A stretch of 64,000 nt of DNA from a virus. The stretch is taken from positions 124,001 to 188,000 of the IMG/VR virus record IMGVR_UViG_3300020154_000003; one strand, 5' to 3'. This document shows positions 1,586 to 57,208 of the stretch, one piece after another (the first letter of the stretch is position 1; every line of letters begins with the position of its first letter). The position numbers and the translations under genes are program-made. Under the pieces are notes generated by a model. The model had not been told where the DNA came from, did no database searches, and saw only the letters and a program-made list of their open reading frames with translations.

Positions 1586-1658
1586 GAGAGTATGGCTCAG
1601 TGGTTAGAGCAAGGACTTCTAAACTCCTAGGTCGTGGGTTCGAATCCCACTACTCTCT
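1586..1658 (+). tRNA. amber-suppressor tRNA (anticodon CUA)
   Basis: Acceptor GAGAGTA/TACTCTC, D stem GCTC/GAGC, T stem GTGGG/CCCAC, T loop TTCGAAT and a 5-nt variable loop are all standard. By position the anticodon stem is AGGAC/CTCCT (C31-C39 mismatch) and the loop TTCTAAA gives CUA at 1619-1621, with U33 and A37 in place. Shifting the frame to UCU would break the stem further. The charging amino acid cannot be told from sequence. It is flanked by two genes with in-frame TAG. Confidence 0.75.
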
Positions 1659-1677
1659 CTCAATAAAATAAAAAGTT

Positions 1678-5171: not shown

Positions 5172-5870
5172 ATGATCATAGGACTCTCCGGGCATATCAA
5201 AAGTGGTAAATCCACAGCAGCCCAATTAATTCAAAGCGAAACCAATAATAAATTTGTTGAGAAATATTTTGCATACAAGTTAAAATTTATTGCCTCTTAC
5301 CTAACTGGTGACCCCATTCAATTGTTTGAAACTCAAGAAGGTAAGGAAGGATATTTGGAAGATTGGGGTATGACAAGGCGAGAAATTCTTCAAAAGCTTG
5401 GTACAGAATCACTCCGAGAAAATTTCGATAAAAACGTTTGGATAAAAGGAGTGTTTGCTGATTATAAACCACAATCAGTATCAGCACCTGCAGCCATATC
5501 TGGCAATCCTCAAATTGAAAAGTATCCTAATTGGATTATCTCCGATGTTCGTTTCCCCAACGAAGCTGACGCGATCAAAACAAAAGGTGGTCTATTACTT
5601 AGGGTTAACCGTCCAGTTGATTTGATATACCCCAATGAATGGAACTCTTATGCTAGTGAAAATAAGGATTCTGAGTTGAGTGAAAAAGGATTCCATGAAT
5701 GGTTATCATATGGCGATACTAAACAGTTTGATTTATTCAAAAAATTAACCCACCCATCAGAAATTGGATTGGATGACTATGAAGATTTTGACTTTATAGT
5801 TGACAATAATGACACCCTAGAATCTTTTCAAGGGAAAATTAAACATATTATTCACACACATTTAAACTAA
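5172..5870 (+). CDS. deoxynucleoside monophosphate kinase
   Basis: A P-loop GHIKSGKST at residues 7-15, RREILQKLGTESLRE in the middle and ISDVRFPNEA later match phage dNMP kinases of the T4 gp1 type, at the usual length (about 230 aa). It phosphorylates dNMPs to dNDPs for phage DNA synthesis. It abuts a HAD nucleotidase gene, which fits a nucleotide-pool operon. Confidence 0.8.
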   Translation: MIIGLSGHIKSGKSTAAQLIQSETNNKFVEKYFAYKLKFIASYLTGDPIQLFETQEGKEGYLEDWGMTRREILQKLGTESLRENFDKNVWIKGVFADYKPQSVSAPAAISGNPQIEKYPNWIISDVRFPNEADAIKTKGGLLLRVNRPVDLIYPNEWNSYASENKDSELSEKGFHEWLSYGDTKQFDLFKKLTHPSEIGLDDYEDFDFIVDNNDTLESFQGKIKHIIHTHLN

Positions 5871-6635
5871 ATGTCTTCACTAACATACGATGTTGCATTT
5901 GCAAAAACGCAACTAAATAAACTGATTCAAATATATGGTGCGCAACCTAATTATACTTGGTCAGTACTTTTATCAAAAATAGAACATCACTCCAATGCAA
6001 TTGCAAGGGGTGAAGACTATGATAGTAATGAGTTTCTTCATAGCGTATGGGTTCAATATTATTCATCTTTATTAAGTGAAAGTTACATTTTGAATCCTAA
6101 TGGGGATGATCGAAATCATTCATATTTGAACACTCCGAATATTGGTTTGGATATTGATGAAGTTTTAGCTGATTGGGTTACTGCTTGGACTAAGTTATAT
6201 AATTTAGAACGTCCAACAGCATGGTCTTTTGATCGTAAAATTTTAGAACGATTTAAGGAAATGGAGAAGGCAGGTACATTGGATGATTTCTATTTAAATT
6301 TAGAACCTAAATCAAAAGGTTGTGATCTTCCCTTTGAACCTGTTTGTTACATCACCTCAAGACCCGTAAAAAGCGAAGTGACTCAAGAATGGTTGCATAA
6401 ACACGGGTTCCCTTCAAAACCAGTTCATACTGTTCCAGTATACGAATCTAAAGTTAAAGTCGCGAAAGAAGCCAACGTAGAAATTTTTGTTGATGATGGA
6501 TGGCACAATTTCAGAGAGTTCAACAAGAACGGCATATGTTGTTATTTGTTTGACGCACTTCACAACCAAAAATATAAAGTAGGACATAAAAGAATTAAAT
6601 CACTAAACGAATTGCCATGTCTGTATTACAAATGA
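5871..6635 (+). CDS. HAD-superfamily 5'-nucleotidase-like protein with N-terminal extension
   Basis: Residues from about 90 on carry the HAD motifs: GLDIDEVLADW (motif I, DxD), CYITSRP (motif II) and FVDDGWHNF (motif IV). Phage proteins of this kind resemble 5'(3')-deoxyribonucleotidases. The first 85 residues form an extra helical domain (an N-rich phage domain of the dATP/dGTP-pyrophosphohydrolase neighbourhood type is possible, but I cannot name it). It starts directly at the dNMP kinase stop. Confidence 0.7.
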   Translation: MSSLTYDVAFAKTQLNKLIQIYGAQPNYTWSVLLSKIEHHSNAIARGEDYDSNEFLHSVWVQYYSSLLSESYILNPNGDDRNHSYLNTPNIGLDIDEVLADWVTAWTKLYNLERPTAWSFDRKILERFKEMEKAGTLDDFYLNLEPKSKGCDLPFEPVCYITSRPVKSEVTQEWLHKHGFPSKPVHTVPVYESKVKVAKEANVEIFVDDGWHNFREFNKNGICCYLFDALHNQKYKVGHKRIKSLNELPCLYYK

Positions 6636-9325: not shown

Positions 9326-10204
9326 TTACCACATTACTGGTATTAAGTTTCTCAAAAAATCTTTATCCTGAGTGAAAATAGGTGGCTCAACGACTTGCCA
9401 AGTATTTCTCTTGATATAGTACTGGCCAACCCTTTCCAAATTCGGATGTTGATCATCATCTATCAACCATTTAACATTATCTGCAGTTTTAGGATTTTTC
9501 AAAGCAAGTTTGGCACGATCTTCGGGAAGTGCAACCCATGTCTCTTGTTTAAGAATTACCCTTCCTCTTTTTTGACCTACCGGATAATCATTCCAGTTCT
9601 GACCCTTTTTCCAAATCAGGTCTTGAAGTTGATCAGTGCTCTTCCCATTCAATTCCTTGTGTGAATATAGTGATTGAGCAACGGCCTGAATGGAGTTTCT
9701 GGTTGCATCTTGCTGCCTCCAAATGAAGTAATTAATGACTTCCTCTGATGGTGGAATGGTAAATAACCTGCTGTCAAACATTGCTGTTTTAAAATTTTCA
9801 ATATCCTCTGCAATCGGTATTAAGGCAGTTTCCTTAAACCAACGAGCAAGTCGTAATTGATTGAATTTAGCGGTAGCGAGACTCGATGAAATGGATGCCA
9901 TTTTCTGAACGTTACCATCAAACCATGCTGAGGTGGTTGTCTTTTCAAAATCACTCAATAGAATCGAAATTTCATCTGACTGGACATAACCAAATTTGGC
10001 TCCTTGAATGTTATCACAGAGATATTTTGTGGTTTCATCCATATCCTTAATTAAGTCCGCATCGAATGGTCGCTTAAGTCCACGAGTATAGGTGTGAAAT
10101 GCCTTCCCATCGATCCTTATCATTGTATAGGTTCTTCTAGGAAGATAGGTTCTACTTCTATCCTCATAATAGGTTTTCATTCTGTCGCCAAGTTCATCTT
10201 TCAT
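9326..10204 (-). CDS. Thg1-like tRNA 3'-5' polymerase (tRNA-His guanylyltransferase family)
   Basis: MIRIDGKAFHTYTRGLKRPFD near residue 28 and GYVQSDEISILLSD near residue 90 are the metal-binding carboxylate motifs of Thg1 and Thg1-like proteins, and the length (292 aa) fits. In bacteria, archaea and phages such proteins (TLPs) repair 5'-truncated tRNAs by templated 3'-5' addition. With three phage tRNAs, a suppressor among them, and several Pth2-like proteins nearby, tRNA repair is a sensible role here, but that is inference. It is a lone minus-strand gene among plus-strand genes. Confidence 0.85.
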   Translation of the reverse strand: MKDELGDRMKTYYEDRSRTYLPRRTYTMIRIDGKAFHTYTRGLKRPFDADLIKDMDETTKYLCDNIQGAKFGYVQSDEISILLSDFEKTTTSAWFDGNVQKMASISSSLATAKFNQLRLARWFKETALIPIAEDIENFKTAMFDSRLFTIPPSEEVINYFIWRQQDATRNSIQAVAQSLYSHKELNGKSTDQLQDLIWKKGQNWNDYPVGQKRGRVILKQETWVALPEDRAKLALKNPKTADNVKWLIDDDQHPNLERVGQYYIKRNTWQVVEPPIFTQDKDFLRNLIPVMW

Positions 10205-10503: not shown

Positions 10504-11379
10504 ATGACACTAATATTAGACCTCACCAAAGGAGTCACCGAAACCACAGCATACAAAGCATGGAAATTTCCGGGTGGCGAAATTCACTTCAAGTTCTCAG
10601 ATGAATTTATACGTTGGCTAAATTCTCACAGATCGCTCGAAATTCAGACCAGAATAAACACCTCAGATGATTTTCTGTTTTTACTTCTAGTAATTGATAC
10701 GTTGAAGAAGGATTATCAGAATCACACCATCGATGTTTTCATCCCTTATATGCTTTACCAGCAAGCAGATAGAGATTTCAGTGTTGGCGAATGTTTTAGT
10801 CTCAGAACTGTAACCAAAATTCTGAATGCCATTGGTGTAAATTCATACACGATTTACGATCCCCACTCAGATGTTACTCCAGCTTTACTTCAGAACTGTA
10901 AGGTTATCGACAATAGCGATTACATCAAATGGGTGCTTGAGCAACTACCTTCATTAGGTAAATATTCCAATGGATTCAACGTTGTTATGCTTTCCCCCGA
11001 TGCTGGTGCATATAAGAAAATCTATAAACTCGCCAATAAAATTCAATTCAAGGGTGAGGTTGCGTCAGCCAATAAATCTCGTTCGATTTCAACTGGAAAT
11101 ATAGACTCATTGGAACTGTCGAAACATGATTTCGAAGGTAAGGATGTGTTGATTGTTGATGACATCTGTATCGGTGGTAGAACCTTTATTGAACTAGCAA
11201 AGAAGTTGAAGGAACGGAATGTTGGTGATTTATATCTCGCAATTTCTCACGGCATTTTTAGTAACGGATATGATGAACTAAGTCTCTACTACAAAAAGGT
11301 ATTCACTACTAACAGTAGAAAAAATGAATACAATCACGAATTAATTTCAACCTTTAACATTTTTGGCGATAATGACTGA
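10504..11379 (+). CDS. PRPP-synthetase-like enzyme, candidate ADP-ribose pyrophosphokinase (Adps-like)
   Basis: The protein has the ribose-phosphate pyrophosphokinase layout: FIPYMLYQQADRDFSVGECFS in the N-terminal half and the PRPP-binding loop VDDICIGGRTF near residue 220. It is a little shorter than cellular Prs (291 versus about 315 aa). Prs makes PRPP. In the phage NARP1 pathway a Prs homologue, Adps, instead pyrophosphorylates ADP-ribose for use by a NAMPT homologue, and a NAMPT-like gene lies at 12210. Sequence alone does not settle which substrate is used. Confidence 0.75.
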   Translation: MTLILDLTKGVTETTAYKAWKFPGGEIHFKFSDEFIRWLNSHRSLEIQTRINTSDDFLFLLLVIDTLKKDYQNHTIDVFIPYMLYQQADRDFSVGECFSLRTVTKILNAIGVNSYTIYDPHSDVTPALLQNCKVIDNSDYIKWVLEQLPSLGKYSNGFNVVMLSPDAGAYKKIYKLANKIQFKGEVASANKSRSISTGNIDSLELSKHDFEGKDVLIVDDICIGGRTFIELAKKLKERNVGDLYLAISHGIFSNGYDELSLYYKKVFTTNSRKNEYNHELISTFNIFGDND

Positions 11380-11791
11380 TAGTTCGTTAGATACATTTTT
11401 CGATATTAAAACTTGTATTGATAGACTTTACTGCGAGTGGAAGAAACATCCCAAATTAATTATCGCTGTCGATTTCGATGACACGGTTTTTGATTTCCAT
11501 AATAGAAATCAAGTTCATGATAATGTGATTAATCTCCTTCATGAATGTAAAAAAGAAGGTTTCTACATTGTCGTATTCACAGCATCCAAGCCTGAACGCT
11601 ATGACTTCATAAAGGACTACATGGAAATGAAGGGTATCGAAATTGATGGCATTAATAAAAATGTTATCGAACTTCCTTACGGCAATAACGGAAAGATATA
11701 CTACAACATTTTATTGGATGACCGTGCTGGCTTATTTCAAGCTGTTACTATTCTCACTAGCGTTTTATTTAAAATACGAAACAAAGCATGA
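11372..11791 (+). CDS. HAD-like phosphatase
   Basis: AVDFDDTVFDF (motif I DxD), VVFTASK (motif II) and LLDDRAG (motif IV) mark a compact HAD hydrolase of the phage nucleotidase kind. I chose the ATG at 11372, which overlaps the previous stop; the next gene overlaps its own stop (ATGA). It therefore sits inside the Prs-like/NAMPT-like operon. Confidence 0.7.
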   Translation: MTDSSLDTFFDIKTCIDRLYCEWKKHPKLIIAVDFDDTVFDFHNRNQVHDNVINLLHECKKEGFYIVVFTASKPERYDFIKDYMEMKGIEIDGINKNVIELPYGNNGKIYYNILLDDRAGLFQAVTILTSVLFKIRNKA

Positions 11792-12213
11792 TAGTATTTG
11801 TGGCGACTCCATTTTGGAGTTTTGATAAAGAAGTGTCTGAACGAAGAACTGCGATAATAAGCAAGTATTGCGGGCAATTATTGCGTGAGGGTATTATGTG
11901 TACTTCGCCAGTTGTTTTTGGAGTAACTATACTGAAATATACTGACCTACCGGGAAATTTTGCCTTTTGGGATAAACTTAGTTTTACCACTTTGGCAGCT
12001 TCAGATGTGCTACACGTACTTATGCTCCCCGGATGGGATGAATCGAGAGGCGTTAGTGAGGAAATAAAATTCGCACTAGAAAGAAAAATACCAATAAAAT
12101 ATTTTGATGTTTCCGAAGATAGATATGGCAGTCCCACTTTCAAAGAAAATAGCAGATCAATAGCTATTGGCAACCTAATAAGAAAAATTAATCATAAAAA
12201 AAATAACCCATGA
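11788..12213 (+). CDS. DUF1937-like (nucleoside 2-deoxyribosyltransferase-fold) protein
   Basis: VFVATPFWSFDKEVSERR at the start, CTSPVVFG in the middle and LPGWDESRGVSEEIKFAL in the second half follow the DUF1937 pattern, related to the nucleoside 2-deoxyribosyltransferase fold. Such folds bind nucleotide sugars. Coupled by ATGA overlaps on both sides to the HAD and NAMPT-like genes, so a role in the same NAD/nucleotide step is plausible. Confidence 0.6.
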   Translation: MIVFVATPFWSFDKEVSERRTAIISKYCGQLLREGIMCTSPVVFGVTILKYTDLPGNFAFWDKLSFTTLAASDVLHVLMLPGWDESRGVSEEIKFALERKIPIKYFDVSEDRYGSPTFKENSRSIAIGNLIRKINHKKNNP

Positions 12214-13781
12214 AAATGAATCCATTTTTAATGGCTGACTTTTACAAGATCGGTCACCCATTTCAATACCCCAAAGGTACAAATCTTGTTTATGCTAACT
12301 TAACACCACGTAATTCCAGAATCAAGGGAGTTGACAAGATGGTGTTCTTTGGCCTTCAATATTTTATCAAGCATTACTTGATTAAGTATTTCAACGAAAA
12401 CTTCTTCGATCTTCCGAAAGACGAAGTGATGAATTCATACAGAAGAAGAATTCTCACCTCATTAGGTTCCGATCTACCTTATTATGATCACATTGCAAAT
12501 CTTCACGATTTGGGTTATCTCCCAATCGAGATTAAAGCTTTGCCAGAAGGAAGCAAGGTGAAGATGCGTGTGCCAGTACTGACTGTCAAAAATACACACC
12601 CTGAATTTTATTGGTTGACCAATTTCATAGAAACAATCATGTCCGATATTGTGTGGCAACCATGTACCTCCGCTACTATTGCCCACGAATACCGTAAACT
12701 TCTCAACAAGTTTGGTGAAGAAACTGGTATGCACCCCGACTTTATTCAATGGCAAGGTCACGACTTCAGCTTTAGAGGTATGAGTTCCTTCGAGAGTGCA
12801 TATACTTCAGCTATGGGGCACTTATTATCTTTTACTGGCACTGACACCATTCCGGGGATTGATGCTCTTGAAACGTATTACAATGCTAATGCGGATTACG
12901 AATTAATTGGTGGTAGTGTCAATGCTACCGAACACAGTGTTATGTGTGCTGGTGAAAAGGATTCAGAGTACGAGACTTACAGACGTTTGATCTGTGATGT
13001 ATACCCTAAAGGCATCGTATCAATTGTTTCAGATACTTGGGATTTATGGTTCGTACTAACTCAGATCATACCTCAATTGAAAGAAGCGATTCTCAATAGG
13101 GAAGGTAAGGTTGTTATTCGTCCTGACAGTGGCGATCCTGTTAAAATTCTTACAGGTTACTTCAAGAACGAATTGACTGTGATCGATGGCAAATATTACC
13201 GTAACACTGATGTTGATGCTCATGATATTGACGCAACTAAGCTAACGCTTAAAGCAGGTGCCAAAGAAGTTGGTGAAGCTGAAAGAAAAGGTGTTATTGA
13301 GGTTCTTTGGGACGTGTTTGGTGGAACCATCACTGACAAAGGTTACAAACTACTGGACGAACATATTGGGGCAATTTACGGTGACAGTATCACACTTACT
13401 CGTGCAGAAGAAATTTGTCAGCGATTGAAAGATAAGGGATTTGCTTCACAAGTTGTACTTGGTATCGGTAGCTACACTTATCAGTACAACACCAGAGATA
13501 CCTTTGGTACTGCAATGAAGTCTACCTATGTTGAAGTTAACGGTGAAGGAAGAGAAATTTTCAAATCTCCTGCGACTGATGATGGAACTAAAAAATCTGC
13601 CAGAGGCTTGCTGAAAGTTGTGAAAGATGAGGACGGTGAATTCGTACTTGTAGATCAGGTGTCTTGGGAAGAAGAGGCTGAGGGAGAATTAACACCAGTC
13701 TTTAAGGATGGTAAGTTACTTGTTGACCAGTCATTGAGCGAAATAAGGGCAAGATTGAGTGAAGTAGTAGAGGTAGTATAA
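12210..13781 (+). CDS. NAMPT-like nicotinamide (ADP-)phosphoribosyltransferase, NadV/Namat-like
   Basis: Length 523 aa and motifs DFYKIGHPFQYP (start), HDFSFRGM, ATEHSVM (the conserved catalytic-region His), VIRPDSGDP and YGDSIT match nicotinamide phosphoribosyltransferases. NAMPT joins nicotinamide to PRPP to give NMN; the phage homologue Namat joins nicotinamide to ADP-ribose pyrophosphate to give NAD+ directly. Position two genes after a Prs homologue favours the NARP1 arrangement, which restores NAD+ during infection against NAD-depleting defences. Confidence 0.85.
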   Translation: MKMNPFLMADFYKIGHPFQYPKGTNLVYANLTPRNSRIKGVDKMVFFGLQYFIKHYLIKYFNENFFDLPKDEVMNSYRRRILTSLGSDLPYYDHIANLHDLGYLPIEIKALPEGSKVKMRVPVLTVKNTHPEFYWLTNFIETIMSDIVWQPCTSATIAHEYRKLLNKFGEETGMHPDFIQWQGHDFSFRGMSSFESAYTSAMGHLLSFTGTDTIPGIDALETYYNANADYELIGGSVNATEHSVMCAGEKDSEYETYRRLICDVYPKGIVSIVSDTWDLWFVLTQIIPQLKEAILNREGKVVIRPDSGDPVKILTGYFKNELTVIDGKYYRNTDVDAHDIDATKLTLKAGAKEVGEAERKGVIEVLWDVFGGTITDKGYKLLDEHIGAIYGDSITLTRAEEICQRLKDKGFASQVVLGIGSYTYQYNTRDTFGTAMKSTYVEVNGEGREIFKSPATDDGTKKSARGLLKVVKDEDGEFVLVDQVSWEEEAEGELTPVFKDGKLLVDQSLSEIRARLSEVVEVV

Positions 13782-14545: not shown

Positions 14546-14933
14546 ACAACCTTCCTCATTGGAGAGTTGTTTTGAATATCTGGATAAGAAATTAGTCGAT
14601 AAAGACTTATTTAAAAACTCACCAGAAAATAAAGTGCTTGGAATGTGCCACTTTTCCTTGGGAATGTGGATGAGAAATAATTGGTATCTCTGGTGGAGTG
14701 AAGATTTGGCAAAGCAATTTGCTGAGAAGGGTTACCCACAAGAAAAACCTCTTCTAGTAAAATACTTCAATGAAGAGTTAGGGATATTTCATGCTGATGA
14801 TATGAGTAGCATTATCATAACTTCGTATCATAGAAAACTTAATGACCTCACCTTACGTCTTGACCTGCAGGCTAAGAAATATCAAGATTTCTGGCAAAAT
14901 AGTGTCGATAAAAAATTGATGGATGAAGAATAA
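14523..14933 (+). CDS. DUF6794-type protein
   Basis: LGMCHFSLGMWMRNNWYLWW and HADDMSSIIITSYHRKL match the DUF6794 pattern (G-M-W-x-R-N-x-W then DDMSxII), a family common in Bacteroidota and their phages. Function unknown. Confidence 0.6.
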   Translation: MDKVNEIEQPSSLESCFEYLDKKLVDKDLFKNSPENKVLGMCHFSLGMWMRNNWYLWWSEDLAKQFAEKGYPQEKPLLVKYFNEELGIFHADDMSSIIITSYHRKLNDLTLRLDLQAKKYQDFWQNSVDKKLMDEE

Positions 14934-15552
14934 AATATCATACATATTAATACTCTTATTAGTAATATTAACTTCCTTTAATTCAAAACCAGCAACTGGT
15001 TGTCTCGAACTCGATTTAATTCTCATCGGGGATTACTCGTCCAGTTTAAGGGGTCAAGAACATTATTTTGTAGGTGCATGTAGAACATTCGTTAAGAAAT
15101 TTCAATTATCTGAACAAACAATCAAAATTGGTATAGTAACCTTTAATGATACTGCAAAACTAATCAGTCCTTTAAGTAGTGATACTTCCTTTATCACTAG
15201 CAGAATTAATGAGTTGGCTGAAGAAATAGGTGAAGATTGGACTAATATGGAGAAAGGATTATTCGTGGCTTTTAATGAGTTCACAAATAACGGCAGACCA
15301 AATGCACAGAAAATGATTATAATCCTTTCTGACGGTGCAGTCAACGATCCGGGCGATAAAACTTCAGCACCCATAACTACGATGGAAATTATTCAACAAC
15401 TTAGAATGACTGGTATGGGTGTGTGTAGCATCTTAATTAAGAGCGGTGAAGAGGAACCAGAATTCATGAAAGCGATTTCATCAGGATGTTACGCAGAATC
15501 TAGCTACGAAAATCTAGCAATCGAATTGGCTAAATTAGATGTTTGTCTCTAA
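14923..15552 (+). CDS. secreted VWA-domain protein
   Basis: A signal peptide (MKNKISYILILLLVILTSF) is followed by a VWA fold: GDYSSSLRG (DxSxS MIDAS), a central threonine region (DWTNMEKGL) and LSDGAVND. The mature protein should be periplasmic or outside the cell. It could bind a protein partner through Mg2+, but the partner is unknown. Its start overlaps the previous stop. Confidence 0.75.
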   Translation: MKNKISYILILLLVILTSFNSKPATGCLELDLILIGDYSSSLRGQEHYFVGACRTFVKKFQLSEQTIKIGIVTFNDTAKLISPLSSDTSFITSRINELAEEIGEDWTNMEKGLFVAFNEFTNNGRPNAQKMIIILSDGAVNDPGDKTSAPITTMEIIQQLRMTGMGVCSILIKSGEEEPEFMKAISSGCYAESSYENLAIELAKLDVCL

Positions 15553-16153
15553 AAAAAATGTGTGGAAGCCAGCTTCTCTGGATGTGATGCGTCAAATTGC
15601 AAACGCTGAGAAAGATTGGGCATCCTTACTGAAATCGGAGAACACATATAAAAAATTTTTCAAGAAATTGCTTTTTTGGCGTAAACCAAAAACACAATTC
15701 GAAGGAGTTACGTTTCCGGTAGTAAGAAAAGTCTTTGCTAATTTGATGGCTAACGATATTGTTGGAGTACAACCAATGGCAGCACCATCCAATGGTCTTT
15801 ATGCGAATTACATCACAATAACATTCAAACTTGGGAAACCAATTAAGCATAAAATTGTTGGAAAGACACCCGGAGAATATTTAATAAATTTAATACATGC
15901 TTGGAATAGTTTGCCTGATCGATTTGTGAAAGAGGACATTGTTGGTTACTATCACTATAAACTCGCGGCACTGCTTAAGGTTTATCCTACCATCCTCGAT
16001 GAGTATGAAACTGACGATTACACAAAAGATTTGATGTTTGTATTGGAAGGACAGAAGCCCAAACATAAATTTGAAGGTTACAAACCGATACCCCAAATTT
16101 TAAATGGTAATGATGGACATATACCGTTATGGCCTATTCCAAATAAAATATAG
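15539..16153 (+). CDS. protein with T4 gp23-like capsid motif (204 aa)
   Basis: FPVVRKVFANLMANDIVGVQ, continuing PMAAPSNGLYA, closely follows the T4 gp23 segment VRRAIPNLIAFDICGVQPM. The rest does not look like a full capsid protein, which would be over 400 aa. It may be a detached capsid-derived domain. The gene ends in TAG; readthrough would add only four more codons after it (CAA AAT GAA GAC) before TAA. Confidence 0.55.
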   Translation: MFVSKKNVWKPASLDVMRQIANAEKDWASLLKSENTYKKFFKKLLFWRKPKTQFEGVTFPVVRKVFANLMANDIVGVQPMAAPSNGLYANYITITFKLGKPIKHKIVGKTPGEYLINLIHAWNSLPDRFVKEDIVGYYHYKLAALLKVYPTILDEYETDDYTKDLMFVLEGQKPKHKFEGYKPIPQILNGNDGHIPLWPIPNKI

Positions 16154-16157
16154 CAAA

Positions 16158-16997
16158 ATGAAGACTAACAAAAAACAAAAACATATTGCAGTATTATTTT
16201 CCTCAGGATTGGATTCAACATATCTCATCTATAAAAATCTGAAGGAAGGACATATAGTCCAACCCTATTATGTTGACATTAAAAACAATGAGAATAAGCG
16301 GATAGTGGAATTGCAAAACGTGCAGAAGTTAACTGAATTATTCATTGAGGAATTTCCAAACATGCGATTCCATAAAACGTTGACTGAAGTTTCGGTTAAT
16401 ATTGAATGGGGTTGCGATCTTTTATTCACACAAATCCCTGTGTGGTTGTTTAGTTTATCTTTCATAAGCAATCCGAATGTTCAGGAAATTCATATCGGTT
16501 ATGTTTCAAACGATGATGCAATTTCTTATATAGATGAAATAAAGAAATTTTATAAAGCACAGCAGTGGTTACATAGAGATAAACTTCCTAAACTTTGTTT
16601 CCCGCTTTTGAAAGAAACGAAATCAAGTATGATGGAGGAACTACCAGTAAAGTACAGAACCTATATTACTTCTTGTGAAAATCCAACTTTAAAACCATAT
16701 TTTATTAAAAGTGGAAGTCGAAGAATCCAGTACTTCGAACCTTGTGGTACATGTGTCGCTTGTAATAGGGTTATAAGAGAAAAATTAGATTACAATTTTC
16801 AATATAGAAAACTCATAGTAGATCACTATAAAAAATTGGAGGAAGCACAATATTTTGCACGATTTAAAGAGCATCATCCCAAAGAATATGATGGGATTTT
16901 GAAACTCATTGAAGAAACGAATAGTAATGCTTTTGAGCAGGTGTGGATAGAATCAGGTGGGGATGTTAAAGGAGGTTATGAAGCTGTAGGATGTTGA
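16158..16997 (+). CDS. QueC-like PP-loop ATPase
   Basis: I chose the ATG at 16158. IAVLFSSGLDSTYLIYK is a PP-loop (SGGxDS type) and EPCGTCVACNR with an upstream SC forms the Zn-binding Cys set of QueC (7-cyano-7-deazaguanine synthase). QueC homologues in phages take part in preQ0-based DNA modification. No QueD, QueE, FolE or transglycosylase gene is in this window, so a pathway cannot be claimed; another PP-loop nucleotide enzyme is possible. Confidence 0.6.
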   Translation: MKTNKKQKHIAVLFSSGLDSTYLIYKNLKEGHIVQPYYVDIKNNENKRIVELQNVQKLTELFIEEFPNMRFHKTLTEVSVNIEWGCDLLFTQIPVWLFSLSFISNPNVQEIHIGYVSNDDAISYIDEIKKFYKAQQWLHRDKLPKLCFPLLKETKSSMMEELPVKYRTYITSCENPTLKPYFIKSGSRRIQYFEPCGTCVACNRVIREKLDYNFQYRKLIVDHYKKLEEAQYFARFKEHHPKEYDGILKLIEETNSNAFEQVWIESGGDVKGGYEAVGC

Positions 16998-56611: not shown

Positions 56612-57208
56612 TCACTTTTTATAATCCCATCCAGTAAGGATGGCGTGTTTATGTTTTGCTTCCACCCAAGTTTTAGGGGATATAAACTTATCTAACCAAA
56701 AATCATCATAGGCCATACGCATTTGTTTTGCTGCTTGTCCGAAGGGCATTGCACCGACACCAGTACAGAATCCGCTCATTGTTATGGAATTAATATTACG
56801 GTCAGGAGCATATTCTTTTAGGGTTAGGAATACAGCACGGGCAGCGAGATAGGCATTCAATGTATCTGGAACGAACAATGGAATTCGCATTGTTGGGGCT
56901 ACGATACACCAAGGAATATCTGTATGAGTGGTATCCACCAGAATTGCTTGGCCAACCAAGAGTTCTCCACTATAATAGTTTCTTATTATGTTTTGAACTT
57001 TAGTTTGTAGTTGCCAACCGAATCTTTTTGAAATAACCAGATCAAGGCCACCATCCATATATCCGAACGAATTAGCGGGAGAAACGATACAATCTACTTT
57101 TTGGGAGAAGAAATCACCATGTATGACATTTACGTCATTTTCACCGTGGAATTCTTTTCTCCACATTTCGACCATTTCTTCGTTTCTATCTATTAGGTAG
57201 AACTTCAT
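56612..57208 (-). CDS. macro-domain protein
   Basis: VDCIVSPANSFGYMDGGLDL, GELLVGQAILVDTTH, CIVAPTMRIP and MSGFCTGVGAMPFGQAAKQM cover the whole macro-domain core, as in phage tail-associated macro proteins. Macro domains bind ADP-ribose and can remove it from targets. In a genome that also has Adps/Namat-like and ART-like genes, a link to ADP-ribose or NAD metabolism is worth testing. A CCAGTACTA near-site is one base from the start. Confidence 0.85.
   Translation of the reverse strand: MKFYLIDRNEEMVEMWRKEFHGENDVNVIHGDFFSQKVDCIVSPANSFGYMDGGLDLVISKRFGWQLQTKVQNIIRNYYSGELLVGQAILVDTTHTDIPWCIVAPTMRIPLFVPDTLNAYLAARAVFLTLKEYAPDRNINSITMSGFCTGVGAMPFGQAAKQMRMAYDDFWLDKFISPKTWVEAKHKHAILTGWDYKK

Follow-up and report, generated by a model that had tools for sequence, protein, structure and literature searches.

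A jumbo-phage operon probably combining NARP1-type NAD+ reconstitution with a recurrent phosphatase partner and a glycosidase-fold protein

The stretch of DNA analysed here (the window, 64,000 bases) covers bases 124001-188000 of the 366,038-base virus record IMGVR_UViG_3300020154_000003, the genome of a giant (jumbo) phage, and carries four overlapping genes that probably form a counter-defence operon of the NARP1 type, in which the two core enzymes that rebuild nicotinamide adenine dinucleotide (NAD+) are accompanied by a conserved phosphatase and by a lineage-specific protein with a glycosidase fold. All four open reading frames (ORFs) were found on the + strand where the initial annotation had described an overlapping operon: an Adps-type gene, encoding a Prs homologue of the ADP-ribose pyrophosphate synthetase type (10504..11379, 291 aa); a gene for a small HAD phosphatase, the recurrent NARP1 partner (11372..11791, 139 aa from ATG); a gene for a DUF1937 protein whose fold resembles those of nucleoside deoxyribosyltransferases (NDT), N-glycosidases and TIR domains (11788..12213, 141 aa); and a Namat-type gene, encoding a nicotinamide ADP-ribose transferase (12210..13781, 523 aa). 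The successive junctions overlap by 8, 4 and 4 nt, and adps and namat thus belong to one operon on one strand with two genes between them. For the HAD gene, the most likely start codon is the ATG at 11372, not the listed TTG at 11363. Pfam, PHROGs and NCBIfam were concordant with the gene families first named, and the cluster is far beyond chance because the core genes and HAD are found clustered on one strand at about 100 further loci.

We regard the core of the operon as NARP1 with high confidence, its enzyme activities being predicted from characterised relatives. The Namat-type protein matches PF04095/PF18127 and phrog_448 (2e-205), and shares 55% identity with Namat from Bacillus phage SPbetaL1, for which an NAD+-bound structure has been published (PMC12774641). 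The diagnostic motif of Namat, GS-X-phi-X-phi-X-phi-TRD, where aromatic residues at positions 3 and 7 clamp the adenine (PMC12774641), is present as GSYTYQYNTRD at residues 420-430. Of the 20 residues that contact NAD+ in the crystallised SPbetaL1 protein, 18 are identical in the window protein, the two differences being F392 to Y422, which the motif permits, and A362 to S393; the clamp residues R37, Y422, Y426, T428, R429 and D430 and the catalytic R304 and D306 are all kept. In a maximum likelihood tree, a branch with 100/100 support parts 14 canonical NadV proteins from all NARP1 Namats, including that of the window, which lies outside the canonical NadV class (the Nampt clade without the Namat motif).

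The Adps-type protein matches PF13793/PF00156 and phrog_619 (9e-70), is 38% identical over 203 aa to the Adps of SPbetaL1, and has DPHSDV at the place of DLHAEQ in Escherichia coli Prs. Its tree sets it, with other Adps proteins, apart from six canonical Prs (one from E. coli, two from Mucilaginibacter and three viral) by a branch with 100/99 support. The initial annotation had proposed a NARP1-type identity and had named branching with cellular Prs and NadV as the result that would contradict it; in both trees a fully supported branch instead places the protein with NARP1, and the NARP1 interpretation thus survived this test. The operon shares with the NARP1 of SPbetaL1 and its bacterial homologue in Paenibacillus foliorum the core enzymes, their common strand, the clamp motif, the NAD+ contacts and the position in the trees, but differs by the two additional overlapping genes between adps and namat and by an insertion of about 35 residues in Namat. 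The NrsAB proteins of the Vibrio cholerae phage ICP1, which are homologues of Adps and Namat and with which NAD+ is reported to stay higher under the Nezha defence (PMC11559045), are a further point of comparison: the Prs-like protein of ICP1 and the window Adps share 36% identity, whereas NrsAB is described as two proteins and ICP1 belongs to a different phage group.

The HAD gene is very probably a genuine recurrent partner of NARP1, in numerous unrelated phages as well as on bacterial chromosomes. In phage records, tblastn searches with the HAD protein gave matches in crAss-like phages, where it overlaps its neighbours namat and adps, in Phass-1, where it follows adps and namat, in Vibrio phage VPT02, where it lies between them, and in the Lak megaphages MK250029 (Lak-C1) and MK250024 (Lak-B5), where it adjoins adps and namat is about 85 kb or more away. 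A scan of viral contigs with a HAD profile recovered 80 loci, 52 of them with Adps and Namat within 7 kb, and a scan of bacterial genomes recovered 64 loci, which gave 46 distinct Adps-HAD-Namat trios after removal of near-copies, from Paenibacillus, Cohnella and many Bacteroidota. Pooled, the phage and bacterial data comprise 102 distinct trios in six gene orders, always on one strand, with HAD at most 60 bp from, or overlapping, Adps or Namat in 88.

These pooled sets were chosen largely by HAD, and enrichment was therefore also assessed in genomes that were not (none of the comparisons that follow allows for shared ancestry). In the Bacteroidota order that includes the genome of a Pseudarcicella locus, L233 (148 genomes), a strong HAD match occurs in 5/7 genomes with Namat, each less than 1 kb from it, versus 0/141 others; leaving out the centre genome, the counts are 4/6 versus 0/141 (p 8e-7). 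In the family Paenibacillaceae (104 genomes), the counts are 3/8 versus 0/96, or 2/7 versus 0/96 without the centre genome (p = 0.004), and HAD is always near Namat. Strong HAD matches are likewise found at 14/80 viral Namat loci, these being the 80 most similar to the window, versus 1/80 viral loci with canonical NadV (L388). Some two dozen canonical loci have a weaker HAD relative (about 40-55 bits) no more than about 4 kb from NadV, and these weaker proteins may represent a related subfamily. HAD is probably a working and so far overlooked third part of NARP1; a phosphatase is not mentioned in the open papers on NARP1 consulted here, a check that did not extend to the original NARP1 paper (Nature 2024). 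The suggestion of the initial annotation that the two intervening genes extend the pathway thus finds good support for the HAD gene, a recurrent partner in about 100 loci, and weak support for the DUF1937 gene.

The HAD protein itself is assigned to phrog_1238 (1e-21), its Pfam HAD match being sub-threshold. In an alignment with 14 relatives, D37, D39, T41, K111 and D120 (counted from the TTG start), the residues that an active HAD phosphatase should have, are invariant and D119 is nearly so, and the protein carries the superfamily motifs I (DxDxT), III (Lys) and IV (acidic residue or residues). Its structural model (predicted local distance difference test score, pLDDT, 93) matches one known fold well above background, BT_0820 (PDB 2obb; Z 11.2), which is also its best sequence match (E 2e-10), whereas its score for the corresponding family NF046079 is far under the NCBIfam cut-off (21.1 versus 165 bits). 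Matches at Z of about 7, such as Pnkp and the phage D-arabinose-diphosphate phosphatase 9iqw, were considered as guides to the substrate and set aside, as they tied with many unrelated HAD proteins. No known pyrophosphatase or nucleotidase stood out in the fold search, which gave no substrate hint beyond BT_0820.

The second intervening gene encodes a protein that matches PF09152 (DUF1937) with 36.3 bits against a gathering cut-off of 23. The closest structure to its model (pLDDT 90) is the DUF1937 protein 1t1j (Z 17), followed by the CMP N-glycosidase MilB (10.9), the TIR domain of SPARTA (10.8) and NDT (10.7), and then by ThsB (9.9), SARM1 (9.5) and DNPH1 (9.4); the modelled fold is that shared by nucleoside N-glycosidases and TIR NADases. 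Its sequence similarity, in contrast, is confined to families of the DUF1937/DUF4406 type. Of 73 aligned relatives, 72 retain Glu92 and one has a gap there. The residue stands in the context S-x-G-x-x-x-E, where the motif, rather than a superposition, would put the NDT nucleophile.

Taken together, these features suggest a mechanism in which a host NADase of the TIR, SIR2 or SEFIR type would cleave NAD+ to give ADP-ribose (ADPR) plus nicotinamide, Adps would move pyrophosphate from ATP onto ADPR to give ADPR pyrophosphate (ADPR-PP), and Namat would join ADPR-PP and nicotinamide directly into NAD+; the latter two steps have been demonstrated for homologues and are predicted here from sequence. 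HAD would most likely remove a phosphate from a blocked substrate and so give ADPR back to the pathway. Its partnership with NARP1 rests on conservation, and phosphate-blocked ADPR as its substrate is a guess, for which the candidates would be 2'-phospho-ADPR, which NADases cutting NADP+ would yield, and ADPR-1''-phosphate from the decay of ADPR-PP. Like phosphoribosyl pyrophosphate (PRPP), ADPR-PP should by the chemistry of PRPP decay to a phosphorylated form. From its modelled fold, conserved Glu and position, the DUF1937 protein most probably has ADPR-based molecules as its targets: it would feed ADPR to Adps by cleaving a ribosyl bond of a signal made by TIR proteins, or else would only bind an ADPR-based molecule or a TIR partner. 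A releasing or signal-binding role of this kind is plausible but weakly supported.

The idea that DUF1937 feeds ADPR to the pathway follows the precedent of RyDEP, a glycosidase encoded in the NARP1 operon of mycobacteriophage DyoEdafos that converts cyclic ADPR signals to ADPR, and whose relatives include sequestering forms (PMC13232231). Both operons hold an extra gene inside NARP1, but RyDEP is a RyR-domain protein (PF02026), whereas the window gene encodes a DUF1937 protein with an NDT/TIR fold. A search for PF02026 gave no match in the 366 kb record, and gave none in control genomes either.

A number of observations weigh against parts of this reading. NARP1 is missing from 79/80 viral DUF1937 loci, as scanned with a profile of four closer sequences (nine diverse proteins were too variable to scan with), and the window protein departs from its relatives at usually conserved residues, two conserved Tyr being replaced by Phe, and a His found in 56/73 relatives by Val. 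Phe4, which is shared with loci L263 and L258, stands where 67/73 relatives have Tyr and appears, by eye and motif, to match Tyr7 of NDT, a residue that contacts the nucleophilic Glu; a Y7F/D72N double mutant of one NDT is less active. These changes may mean reduced catalysis, and with them the specificity of the window protein may have shifted, or the protein may be a binder and not an enzyme. The nearest relative, phage L022, moreover has the operon without DUF1937. It is accordingly quite conceivable, if somewhat less than evenly probable, that the NARP1 core is real and that DUF1937 is a passenger or general nucleotide-metabolism gene inserted by chance. This sits poorly with the ATGA overlaps on both sides of the gene, and with the single exception among the viral DUF1937 loci, L263, where Adps, DUF1937, PF15891, Namat and HAD occur in one independent run. 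It also sits poorly with an analogous arrangement in a Pseudarcicella metagenome-assembled genome (L233), where a PF15891 protein occupies the exact slot of DUF1937 in a four-gene Adps-HAD-NDT-Namat operon, PF15891 being found at 19/80 viral Namat loci and with strong scores at 0/80 canonical NadV loci. In one bacterial order PF15891 is nonetheless common and not enriched with Namat (2/7 versus 19/141), only one copy, in the centre genome, being adjacent to it; with enrichment in the viral but not the bacterial set, we do not claim PF15891 as a general partner. A direct profile comparison of DUF1937 and PF15891 detected no relation (probability 0.4%), and the two are therefore treated as separate families, both annotated as NDT-like.

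For HAD, the alternative is a general phosphatase of NAD+ salvage, either an inorganic pyrophosphatase pulling the Namat/Nampt reaction or a (deoxy)nucleoside monophosphate phosphatase starving a Kongming-type defence of its trigger, which we consider a real but minority possibility. HAD occurs near canonical Prs-NadV genes in three Mucilaginibacter loci (one lineage) and beside NadV in L388, pyrophosphate is a product shared by both routes, and the window phage encodes a deoxynucleoside monophosphate (dNMP) kinase (window 5172-5870, +), the type of protein that triggers Kongming (PMC12774641). About 20 further contigs, many of them fragments, have HAD with no Namat found there, and HAD genes outside NARP1 showed by eye no common neighbour theme; given its occurrence with Prs-NadV, with NadV and without Namat, the substrate of HAD need not be ADPR-related. 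SPbetaL1 has no HAD relative beside its NARP1, and in two-protein assays the Adps-Namat pairs from SPbetaL1 and P. foliorum make NAD+ (PMC12774641), so that HAD is not essential and any help it gives would be conditional. Against a general phosphatase stand the near confinement of strong HAD matches to NARP1 loci where genomes were sampled independently of HAD, and the structural search described above, in which BT_0820 was the sole clear match and nothing tied HAD to known pyrophosphatases or nucleotidases.

It is unlikely that the DUF1937 protein is instead a TIR-like decoy or signal sponge without enzymatic function, with a TIR protein or a signal of the ADPR type as its ligand: its model does score about equally against NDT enzymes and against the TIR domains of SPARTA, ThsB and SARM1, the Tyr-to-Phe and His-to-Val changes would fit, and RyDEP has sequestering relatives, but the Glu at the expected nucleophile position is almost universally kept. 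Least probable by far is the canonical PRPP route, in which the Prs homologue would make PRPP and the NAMPT homologue nicotinamide mononucleotide (NMN) as in ordinary NadV-type salvage, since, even though family tools label the proteins Prs and NAMPT and Namat retains PRPP-to-NMN activity in vitro (PMC12774641), making some NMN production possible, the clamp motif and contacts are present, both trees place the proteins with NARP1, and the Namat motif occurs in 0/80 canonical NadV loci.

The preferred reading therefore remains a NARP1 operon joined by two partners, a conserved phosphatase and a lineage-specific protein with a glycosidase fold. Comparison with L022 (371 kb), which has the same flanking genes, bears on the local history of the operon. 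Identity between the two phages is 64% for Adps and 72% for HAD but only 49% for Namat, the window Namat being closest to that of L102 (68% in the tree alignment, 64% by tblastn). The most economical account is a recombination in the lineage of the window phage that exchanged namat, and perhaps DUF1937 along with it. In L263, a 251 kb viral contig, adps and namat both seem to be split by intron-like insertions (L263:2513-8893).

Other genes around NARP1 encode macrodomain, NADAR, ADP-ribosylglycohydrolase and Nudix proteins, nicotinamidase and NAD synthetase. Among the bacterial HAD-NARP1 loci (L189-L252, e.g. L206:3185-4081, L211:9102-10928 and L213:8880-10104), Nudix is frequent (a cluster in 40 loci), and some have an ADP-ribosylglycohydrolase, NADAR or macrodomain gene. 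Phass-1 (L009:1812-6334) and the viral contigs L073 and L080 bring together nicotinamidase, Adps, a diverged Namat-like protein, HAD and NAD synthetase, a set that possibly rebuilds NAD+ through nicotinic acid adenine dinucleotide as a further NARP variant. The window phage itself encodes a macrodomain protein, a fold that binds ADPR (PF01661, 47 bits; window 56612-57208, -), and elsewhere in its genome an NDT-like PF15891 gene (G000:C1:264397-264705, -; locus L419:1384-1875), which overlaps an apparent Nudix hydrolase gene, named by eye.

Just before the operon lies a gene for tRNA-His guanylyltransferase (Thg1; window 9326-10204, -), a position kept in L022, and downstream are genes for a secreted-looking protein with a von Willebrand A domain (14923-15552, +) and for a QueC-like protein (16104-16997, +). 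The gene directly after that of the dNMP kinase (5871-6635, +) has weak similarity to 5'(3')-deoxyribonucleotidases. A tRNA with anticodon CTA, called as tRNA-Pyl and amber-suppressor-like, is encoded at 1586-1659 (+), and TAG is still the stop of 9/83 sampled ORFs. PADLOC returned nothing useful.

NARP1 has so far been described as a minimal two-enzyme pathway. The presence of a co-travelling phosphatase on the chromosomes of Bacteroidota and Paenibacillaceae and in crAss-like phages, Lak phages and the window phage suggests a missing step, namely a phosphorylated dead-end or side product to be cleared, and this partner is the part likely to be of most interest to specialists. We advance more speculatively, as a rather doubtful extension, that NARP1 is often a three-part system of Adps, HAD and Namat with a swappable ADPR-releasing or signal-binding module (RyDEP, NDT-like PF15891, DUF1937, macrodomain, NADAR or ADP-ribosylglycohydrolase), and that DUF1937 would be a new enzyme or decoy against TIR-made signals. 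The diversity of glycosidase-fold and ADPR-processing genes near NARP1 hints at a general rule, that NARP1 operons acquire ADPR-releasing enzymes, and such a rule would guide the finding of new anti-Thoeris and anti-TIR proteins.

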